A stretch of 64,000 nucleotides of DNA, taken from positions 1 through 64,000 of the forward strand of contig JAFGXR010000028.1 in assembly GCA_016936555.1 (NCBI GenBank). The letters are read 5' to 3'. The notes under the pieces are model-generated. The model did not search any database. It was not told where the DNA came from and saw only the letters and a list, made by a program, of their open reading frames with translations. Positions 15,304-18,030 of the stretch are shown here, one piece after another. How positions within the stretch are numbered: position 1 is the first letter of the stretch; each line of letters opens with the position of its first letter. The position numbers and the translations under genes were made by a program. This DNA comes from Spirochaetales bacterium. GTDB lineage: Bacteria; Spirochaetota; Spirochaetia; DSM-2461.

Positions 15304-16671
15304 CTATTCTTTTCCTACCTCTAAGTATAATATATTAAATTTTTCCGATGCATTCATTTTTTTCTTGCGATGGATATTTTTAAACCCTTCCAGTTCACCC
15401 AGAACCGCCGCAATCCCCGAAGAATCTTCAACAAGGGGAACGCTGTAGCGCAGTGATCTGTCGAGCCCCCACTGCCTGTAGATTTCCTTCAATTTTCTGA
15501 CTCCCTGATCCGTTTCTATCACATCTCCGTCAATGGAAGAACGGAAGAAAACCGGAGAACCATCGGTCAGGAAAAGGGGAATCCCTCTCCTTGAGTTGAG
15601 TGTGATGCGATAGCGGTTAACTTGTATTTCTGAATTCTCAGAAAGAATGGAGAAAAAGCCCATTTCAAGACCGGGATCCCTTTTCATAACCAGGCGTTCC
15701 GGCTGAGCTTCAACCACCAAGCCGTAAGCGCGTGCATAGATTCGCCCCGGGATGATATTTCCCTCTGTCAGGGAATTAAAAAAACCCGATGGAAGGCGAA
15801 ATCCCTTCTCATCCCCGGAGAAGAGATGATCGAAAAACTTATAGAGAATTTTCTTTCTGACGAAAGAATTGCAATCATTAAAATCACTGAGGCATAGGGA
15901 CGCCGTATTTTTATCGAGTATCAGGGATTTGCCGGAGCTCACTTCTTCGAACAGAAGATCCAGGTCGTTAAAAGTCTTTTCCTGCTTCAACATTGCTTTT
16001 TCCAAACCGGGGAAAATATCCTCTATAACTGGAATGAGCTGATTGCGGACCCTGTTTCTTAAAAATTCATTTTCACCATTGGAAGGATCTGCGCACCAGT
16101 CCTGTCCGATTTCGGTGAGGTACGAGAGGATTTCAGCTTTCCGGATATGAATAAGAGGCCTGAGAATGTGCTTGTTGCTATGAGGTATGCCTTTCAGGCC
16201 CGCAGGACCGTTCCCTTGAAAAAAACGGGTAATTATAGTTTCAATCTGATCATCGAGGTTGTGCCCGAGAAGAAGAGATGCCTTCCCGTATTGACCAAGA
16301 ACCGATTCAAAGAATCTATAACGGTATTCCCTGGCCACGTCTTCAGTACTGCGTTTTTCTCTGGAGGAGATTGCGCTTATTTCTCCGAACCGGATTTTTT
16401 TTTCGAATAAGGGAATATTGTATTGGGCTGTGAGGTTTCTGACAAACCGGTCTTCCCTATCCAGTTCTTCCCTGTCTCGCAGGCCGTGATTGACATAGGC
16501 AGCACCGAGCTGCAGGGAGAGTTTATCTCTGATCGCGACAAGAGACCTGAGAAGAGCTGTCGAATCAGGACCGCCCGATAAGGCGATCAGACACATTGTC
16601 CCGGCCTCTAATTGATTATGCTTCAGGAATAATAATACTTCTTCAGTCAGCCTTTTTTCGATTGAGCTCAT
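15304..16671 (-). CDS. tilS: tRNA(Ile)-lysidine synthase TilS
   Basis: 455 residues. The PP-loop ATP-binding motif LSGGPDSTALL is near residue 30; LGHNLDDQIET and the C-terminal substrate-binding region follow (GDVIETDQGVRKLKEIYRQ). TilS adds lysine to C34 of the CAU anticodon of one tRNA-Ile so that it reads AUA. The start ATG overlaps the end of pth by 29 bases and has AAGG 7 bases upstream inside pth. Confidence 0.95.
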   Translation of the reverse strand: MSSIEKRLTEEVLLFLKHNQLEAGTMCLIALSGGPDSTALLRSLVAIRDKLSLQLGAAYVNHGLRDREELDREDRFVRNLTAQYNIPLFEKKIRFGEISAISSREKRSTEDVAREYRYRFFESVLGQYGKASLLLGHNLDDQIETIITRFFQGNGPAGLKGIPHSNKHILRPLIHIRKAEILSYLTEIGQDWCADPSNGENEFLRNRVRNQLIPVIEDIFPGLEKAMLKQEKTFNDLDLLFEEVSSGKSLILDKNTASLCLSDFNDCNSFVRKKILYKFFDHLFSGDEKGFRLPSGFFNSLTEGNIIPGRIYARAYGLVVEAQPERLVMKRDPGLEMGFFSILSENSEIQVNRYRITLNSRRGIPLFLTDGSPVFFRSSIDGDVIETDQGVRKLKEIYRQWGLDRSLRYSVPLVEDSSGIAAVLGELEGFKNIHRKKKMNASEKFNILYLEVGKE

Positions 16672-17221
16672 TCATTACCTTCTCGCGCTGGTCGTCGCAG
16701 ATCTGAAGAACGGCAGCGGCGCAGTTTCTGAATGATTCTTCATAAATAAGCCATTCCTCTTCAGGTGGATCTCCAATGACATAATCCCTGACCAGGTCGC
16801 GATGACCGGGATGCCCGATCCCGATAAATATCCTCATATATTCGTTGCTGTGAAGCACATTGCTGATCGATTTCAAGCCGTTGTGCGCAGCGGGAGAACC
16901 TTTGAGCTTCAGCTTGCAACGCCCCGGCATAAGATCCAGATTATCGCAAAGGACCAGTAGATTCTCAGTTTTCATTTTGAATTTATTCAGAATTTCAGGA
17001 AAGATATTTCCTGATAGATTCATAAAAGTGAGAGGTTTGACAAGAACGATTCTGTTCCCGTTATAGACAGTATTACAGTAAAGATAAGGCTTTAAAAACC
17101 TTTTCCTGAAAGACAGATCAAGCTCCCTTATGAGGAGCTCGATAACTTTAAAACCGACGTTGTGCCGGTTATTTTCATATTTTCGGCCCGGATTTCCCAG
17201 GCCGACAACAATAAGATCCAG
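16643..17221 (-). CDS. pth: Peptidyl-tRNA hydrolase, apparently with a CTG start
   Basis: 192 residues if it starts at CTG (17219-17221). The protein begins LDLIVVGLGNPGRKYENNRHN, matching the family start including the catalytic His in RHNVGF; TFMNLSGN and GHPGHRDLVRDY follow. An ATG further down (17023) would delete the catalytic N-terminus, so it cannot be the real start. No ATG, GTG or TTG exists between the rplY stop and the conserved motif. The frame is the same as rplY: its TAA, then AAC, then CTG. Pth recycles peptidyl-tRNA. Translation probably restarts after L25, or an unusual start or a small amount of TAA read-through is used; a base error in the assembly is the alternative. Confidence 0.9.
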   Translation of the reverse strand: MDLIVVGLGNPGRKYENNRHNVGFKVIELLIRELDLSFRKRFLKPYLYCNTVYNGNRIVLVKPLTFMNLSGNIFPEILNKFKMKTENLLVLCDNLDLMPGRCKLKLKGSPAAHNGLKSISNVLHSNEYMRIFIGIGHPGHRDLVRDYVIGDPPEEEWLIYEESFRNCAAAVLQICDDQREKVMNELNRKKAD

Positions 17222-17224
17222 GTT

Positions 17225-17821
17225 TTACTCGTTATCCGCAGATTCTGCTTCTTCTTCAGTAGAAACAGCAGCGCCTTTGGGATGGTTAACAACAACGACT
17301 GTCTGATTTTTCGCAGCCATGATAGTAACACCTTTGATCTCTGCCAGATCACCGACATGAATAGAGTGACCGACCAGAAGACCATCGAGGTTAACAACGA
17401 TTTCCTGGGGAAGATCTTTGGGAAGACATTCAACTTCCATTTCAGAGATCTTCTGTACGAGAATACCGCCTTCCTTAACACCGGGTGAATTTCCTGTCAG
17501 AACAACAGGAACATGAGTTTTCAGTTTCTTACCTTTTTCGATTTCATAAAAATCGAGGTGCCCGATTCTGCTAGTGACAATATCTTCCTGAAAATCTTTG
17601 ATAAGGACTTCACATGTTTCCTTACCGAAATCGAGAGTGATAATTGTATTTTCAGAAATCGTCTTGAATTTCTTGCCAAATTCTCTTTCATTTACAGTGA
17701 TGTTTCTGCTTTCATGCGCACCATAAATAATTGCAGGAATTTTTCCTTCGCTTCTCATTCTACCGGCCGGTCCCTTACCGAACTCATTACGAAGCTCAAC
17801 GGAAAGAGTCTTATGCTCCAT
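17225..17821 (-). CDS. rplY: 50S ribosomal protein L25 (CTC/TL5 two-domain type)
   Basis: 198 residues from the ATG at 17821, with AAGGAG 7 bases upstream; the open frame runs further back, but through the tRNA gene, so those starts are excluded. N-terminal L25 5S-rRNA-binding domain (RNEFGKGPAGRMRSEGKIPA) and the extra beta domain of CTC-type proteins (about 95-180), with an acidic tail EEEAESADNE. It lies just after tRNA-Gln and immediately before pth in the same frame, as in the spoVG-ctc-pth order of many bacteria. Confidence 0.96.
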   Translation of the reverse strand: MEHKTLSVELRNEFGKGPAGRMRSEGKIPAIIYGAHESRNITVNEREFGKKFKTISENTIITLDFGKETCEVLIKDFQEDIVTSRIGHLDFYEIEKGKKLKTHVPVVLTGNSPGVKEGGILVQKISEMEVECLPKDLPQEIVVNLDGLLVGHSIHVGDLAEIKGVTIMAAKNQTVVVVNHPKGAAVSTEEEAESADNE

Positions 17822-17861
17822 TAATTTCTCCTTAGTACCTACTAATAATACTTTTTCAGAT

Positions 17862-17933
17862 CTTGGACGGCAGGATTCGAACCTGCGAATGCCGGGATCA
17901 AAACCCGGTGGCTTACCGCTTGCCGACGTCCAA
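17862..17933 (-). tRNA. tRNA-Gln (anticodon TTG)
   Basis: Minus strand cloverleaf of 72 bases: acceptor TTGGACG/CGTCCAA, anticodon stem CCGGG/CCCGG with loop TTTTGAT giving anticodon TTG, T arm GCAGG-TTCGAAT-CCTGC, discriminator base G as expected for glutamine. CCA is not encoded. It lies between spoVG and rplY on the same strand, 40 bases before the L25 start, so it may be cut from the operon transcript. Confidence 0.93.
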
Positions 17934-18030
17934 ATATAATCTTTTATCCGGTCAAGCCCAAATTCCCCGAATCGTGAACCGGGGATGAAGGCTGTGAGCA
18001 ATCGCGGCAAGCCGCAACCTTCCCGAACAG

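Follow-up and report, generated by a model that had tools for sequence, protein, structure and literature searches.

A Conserved CUG Codon Behind rplY as the Probable Start of the Peptidyl-tRNA Hydrolase Gene in Spirochaetia

The gene for peptidyl-tRNA hydrolase (pth) in a Spirochaetales bacterium follows directly on rplY, the gene for ribosomal protein L25, and very probably starts at a conserved CUG codon, most plausibly by termination-reinitiation after L25. The evidence consists of the lack of a standard start codon, the conserved position of the CUG, its Shine-Dalgarno (SD) context, its nearness to the rplY stop and its independence of the reading frame relative to rplY. As far as comparative sequence can tell, the conserved CUG is a feature of rplY-linked pth in the class Spirochaetia. 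Bacterial genes hardly ever retain CUG as a conserved start; a pth that keeps it across many families, including genomes in which it is the sole pth found, offers a natural setting in which to study how CUG initiation works and why it would be selected.

The rplY–pth Junction

The window, a 64,000-nucleotide stretch of contig JAFGXR010000028.1 (assembly GCA_016936555.1), carries on its minus strand the gene order rplY (L25)–pth–tilS–ftsH, with a tRNA-Gln gene (17861–17934) upstream of rplY; the names tilS and ftsH were given from the translations, without a family search. The features relevant to the junction are as follows:

17225–17821, minus strand: rplY (50S ribosomal protein L25/Ctc), with an acidic C-terminal tail; from ORF calls and family match
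17228–17230, minus strand: GAG, a weak Shine-Dalgarno-like element 6 nt before the CTG, kept in 4/4 species of the genus
17225–17227, minus strand: TAA, the rplY stop codon; from the sequence
17219–17221, minus strand: CTG, proposed pth initiation codon, 6 codons before GLGNPG; from conservation, position and SD tests
16643–17221, minus strand: pth (peptidyl-tRNA hydrolase, PthA), 192 codons plus stop counted from the CTG; from family matches and alignment
17186–17203, minus strand: GLGNPG motif, whose codons form a hairpin shortly after the start; from sequence, alignment and folding
17021–17023, minus strand: internal ATG, the first in-frame standard start in the ORF list, which would give a 126-aa fragment
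15304–16671, minus strand: tilS, the next gene, with a 29-nt overlap with the end of pth; from the ORF list

The identity of both proteins is well supported by profile scores. The predicted pth product scores 168 bits against TIGR00447 (cut-off 100) and 185.6 bits against PF01195 (cut-off 27), and its family match makes it unambiguously a bacterial peptidyl-tRNA hydrolase; in an alignment, it keeps every residue that is invariant in 36 class members (GLGNPG, HN, MN.SG, and D..D). The L25 sequence scores 168 bits against TIGR00731 (cut-off 73).

The original prediction held that pth lacks a standard start codon and lies in frame, one codon after the rplY stop, and both the sequence and the ORF list bear this out. 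Reading along the minus strand, the rplY TAA (17227–17225) is followed by AAC (17224–17222) and CTG (17221–17219), which leaves a gap of 3 nt between stop and CTG, the close spacing typical of a termination-reinitiation pair. The same frame continues through GAT CTT ATT GTT GTC and then GGC CTG GGA AAT CCG GGC, encoding GLGNPG (17203–17186). The stop-to-stop ORF spans 16643–17224 (193 codons), and no ATG, GTG, or TTG occurs in the pth frame of the window between the rplY stop and GLGNPG; the earliest one is the internal ATG at 17023, past both GLGNPG and the conserved His region. A promoter of pth's own was considered and set aside: the search returned 6 consensus matches, compared to 3.0 expected from shuffled sequences, which is uninformative.

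Some 15 nt past the CUG, the codons of the GLGNPG motif form a strong hairpin (17185–17204), with z = −3.1 in a 91-nt segment. This hairpin is probably a by-product of the motif codons, although it could help a weak start.

Conservation within the Genus

Comparing the junction with close relatives, as the original prediction had proposed, showed that none of the congeners has a standard start at this position; the CTG is invariant in 4/4 species. Three congeners, from separate assemblies, read GAG TAA TTT CTG GAT, GAG TAG TTT CTG GAT, and GAG TAA AAT CTG GAT, where the window has GAG TAA AAC CTG GAT, so that all four share the pattern GAG-TAR-NNN-CTG-GAT. The Pth proteins of these four species are 65–82% identical, and both the stop and the spacer codon vary while the CTG remains constant. 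Since only 23% of the internal leucine codons of CUG-start genes are CTG, a mere leucine residue at this position would not yield an invariant CTG.

Survey of the Class Spirochaetia

The survey covered 37 families and 71 genera (an unassigned label was counted as one), represented by 130 rplY-linked pth loci once identical proteins had been removed. In a first set of 84 loci, scored at −4 to −8 codons from GLGNPG, 29 had a CUG and no standard start. A further set was fetched after the pattern had been defined, and 29 of its 47 scored loci were CUG-only; a few of the loci come from genomes closely related to those of the first set, however, and the hold-out is thus not fully independent. In the pooled set, scored at −4 to −9 codons, 59/130 loci have a CUG and lack a standard start. 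For 40 of these 59, the CUG is obligate, there being no ATG, GTG, or TTG anywhere from the preceding in-frame stop to GLGNPG; the 40 loci carry labels of 20 families and 31 genera, with one unassigned locus counted in each figure. Because the loci are related by descent, these counts, as well as the p-values given below, overstate independence, and the number of named families represented, about 19, is a safer measure than raw locus numbers.

The position of the codon is equally constrained. Among the 59 CUG-only loci, the CUG lies 6 codons before GLGNPG in 32 and 5 codons before it in 17 (49 in total), which is also where normal Pth starts sit. Across the class, it mostly falls 0–5 nt after the rplY stop, and, taking rplY as frame 0, CUG-only pth genes occur in frame 0, +1, and +2 alike. 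In two loci (L142 and L300), the CUG forms a CTGA overlap with the rplY TGA, an analogue of the familiar ATGA. Within one family, a GTG occupies position −8 in L117, where L085 and L088 have CTG at −8. Not every member of the class has the CUG, common as it is: some use AUG, GUG, or UUG, or starts in another frame inside the rplY tail. Its retention within the genus, across the class, and in the later set of loci indicates that the pattern is in excess of chance.

Shine-Dalgarno Context and Controls

An SD core lies 5–16 nt upstream of the CUG in 75% of the 59 loci, as opposed to 11% of internal CTG codons and 13% of CTGs in rplY. The SD hybridization energy is −6.3 kcal/mol at CUG starts versus −2.9 kcal/mol in controls (3.4 better, p = 1.4e-6, for loci related by descent). 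Although an upstream SD is thus found class-wide, the locus in the window has a weak GAG. CUG-only starts were absent (0/46) among pth paralogues not linked to rplY (PthB), of which 45/46 have a standard start, and they were likewise absent (0/75) among pth genes of 75 non-spirochaete genomes from other phyla, collected in a named-genome scan with a generic Pth motif.

Alternative Readings of the Junction

The original prediction allowed that read-through of the rplY stop might yield an L25–Pth fusion, joined in frame through an AAC-CTG linker. The short gap and the in-phase arrangement, found both at this locus and in many of its relatives, are what such a fusion would need, but it does not fit the CUG-start relatives in which pth lies in frame +1 or +2. 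The stop codon varies among TAA, TAG, and TGA even where pth is in frame 0 (L158 has TGA), the linker codon is not kept within the genus (AAC, TTT, TTT, AAT), and read-through would leave both the conserved CTG and the upstream SD unexplained; we consider this fusion extremely unlikely. A start at another non-standard codon near the motif, such as the ATT at 17212–17210 that the same prediction had named or another near-cognate codon, is very unlikely as well. ATT is present in the window and is a known rare start codon (PMC4611024); however, the four species of the genus have ATT, TTG, CTA, and TTA at this position, whereas the CTG is invariant, and the SD spacing suits the CTG.

The third reading, in which the junction stems from a mistake in sequencing or assembly, or pth has decayed and is sustained by a second copy, draws on the state of the genome, a draft of 134 contigs that is 95% complete and does contain a second pth. 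It is largely refuted and scarcely credible. The junction is not an assembly error, because the separately assembled genomes of three other species show GAG-TAR-NNN-CTG-GAT as well; the ORF is unbroken and lacks none of the invariant Pth residues, and in two complete single-contig genomes the one pth that was detected has an obligate CUG. Initiation at the CTG after L25, another possibility named at the outset, is strongly supported by its conservation, position, and SD context.

Loci with No Start Close to the Motif

The loci that have neither a nearby standard start nor a CUG are almost all in frame +1 relative to rplY. The acidic, GAA-rich tail of rplY contains ATG, GTG, or TTG codons when it is read one base further along, in the pth frame. 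In frame +1 loci, a standard start may lie further upstream in this tail, which counts against the CUG reading there. In about 19 such loci (L022, L046, L064, and others), pth seems to start inside the acidic tail. A +1 frameshift fusion was considered for the loci without a nearby start and rejected: no shared slippery motif was seen, and nearly all of them have ATG, GTG, or TTG in the pth frame within the rplY tail. For these same reasons, an overlapping upstream start, which would add a Lys-rich N-terminal extension, is a simpler explanation than frameshifting.

Two further arrangements were observed. One genus (L039, L046, and L052) keeps an ACG at −5 and has no ATG, GTG, or TTG, nor a CTG at the usual place; there, pth may start at the ACG or further upstream, within the rplY tail. 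The frame 0 locus L287 has neither a standard start nor a CUG between the rplY stop and GLGNPG, and its nearest near-cognate codon is ATC.

A Second pth and Genomes with One pth

The lack of a standard start had been called striking for an essential enzyme, a description that holds in part. The genome of the window has a second full-length pth (PthB; G000:C132:36189-36689; L002, L071) in which several ATG codons lie in frame close to the start, so that the window pth alone need not be essential here. Both the rplY-linked copy and PthB are present in most genomes of the class. However, in two relatives with single-contig genomes, G032 and G057 (99–100% complete), one pth was detected: in its frame, a stop is followed by GGAG and then CTG, without a standard start.

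Proposed Mechanism and Relation to Known Systems

In the mechanism that we propose, initiator fMet-tRNA would read the CUG at 17221–17219, giving a protein that begins Met-Asp-Leu-Ile-Val-Val-Gly-Leu-Gly-Asn-Pro. After terminating L25 synthesis at the neighbouring stop, ribosomes would re-initiate at this CUG, guided by a purine-rich SD within the end of rplY. The spacing of the two genes suggests that re-initiation, rather than de novo initiation, is probably the operative step. The arrangement resembles known termination-reinitiation (TeRe) pairs, in which stop and start overlap or lie a few nucleotides apart, but it differs from them in that the codon for re-initiation would be CUG rather than AUG, GUG, or UUG, and in that the coupling is deduced from the spacing alone. 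In E. coli gene pairs, coupling depends strongly on distance and is effective at spacings like these (PMC10666635), and CUG initiates poorly and forms less stable complexes than AUG, GUG, or UUG (PMC11497404). Placing such a weak start after a gene with high translation would thus give a modest amount of Pth, and the likely role of the CUG is to couple Pth to abundant L25 while holding Pth output low. Pth output is possibly also sensitive to the fidelity of initiation factors.

The same gene order, rplY/ctc–pth (spoVC), occurs in several other phyla; there pth has standard starts, and the CUG-only form was seen only in spirochaetes when compared with the 75 pth genes of other phyla. CUG starts are rare, and a survey of start-codon evolution in prokaryotes counted 2 AUG-to-CUG switches among 61,358 ancestral AUG starts; like pth here, non-AUG starts in that survey have stronger SD signals, but it does not appear to report a CUG retained in a single gene over many families (PMC5622118). 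Caulobacter dnaA was discarded as a CUG precedent because its CUG is not used in vivo (PMC8443254). Conserved non-AUG starts in translation genes and TeRe pairs are both known, whereas for a pth starting with CUG, as for a survey of spirochaete start codons, we found no earlier description in the open-access papers searched.

These codons matter for annotation too. Prodigal considers only ATG, GTG, and TTG (PMC2848648), and a pth of this kind is therefore expected to be called truncated (in the window, 126 instead of 192 aa, lacking GLGNPG and the conserved His) or to be missed. Truncated or missed calls can mislead lists of essential genes and work on Pth as a drug target.

A close parallel is infC, the gene for initiation factor IF3, which has an AUU start codon. 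Like this and other conserved rare starts, pth would be a gene of the translation machinery with a phylogenetically conserved weak start; unlike infC, its codon is CUG and is found directly behind the stop codon of a ribosomal protein. AUU is a rare start codon that IF3 discriminates against (PMC4611024). The pth CUG could be an ancient, selected control point, at which low-fidelity re-initiation behind L25 lets Pth follow ribosomal-protein synthesis and respond to IF3 activity. We regard this idea as speculative and rather unlikely, and offer the link to IF3 as a hypothesis; if true, it would imply a feedback between initiation fidelity and the clearance of peptidyl-tRNA. The draft assembly that contains the window yielded no match to the IF3_N domain, probably owing to a gap. 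In the relatives examined (L233–L244), the infC start is a conserved TTG in 12/12, three of which also have an adjacent ATG.
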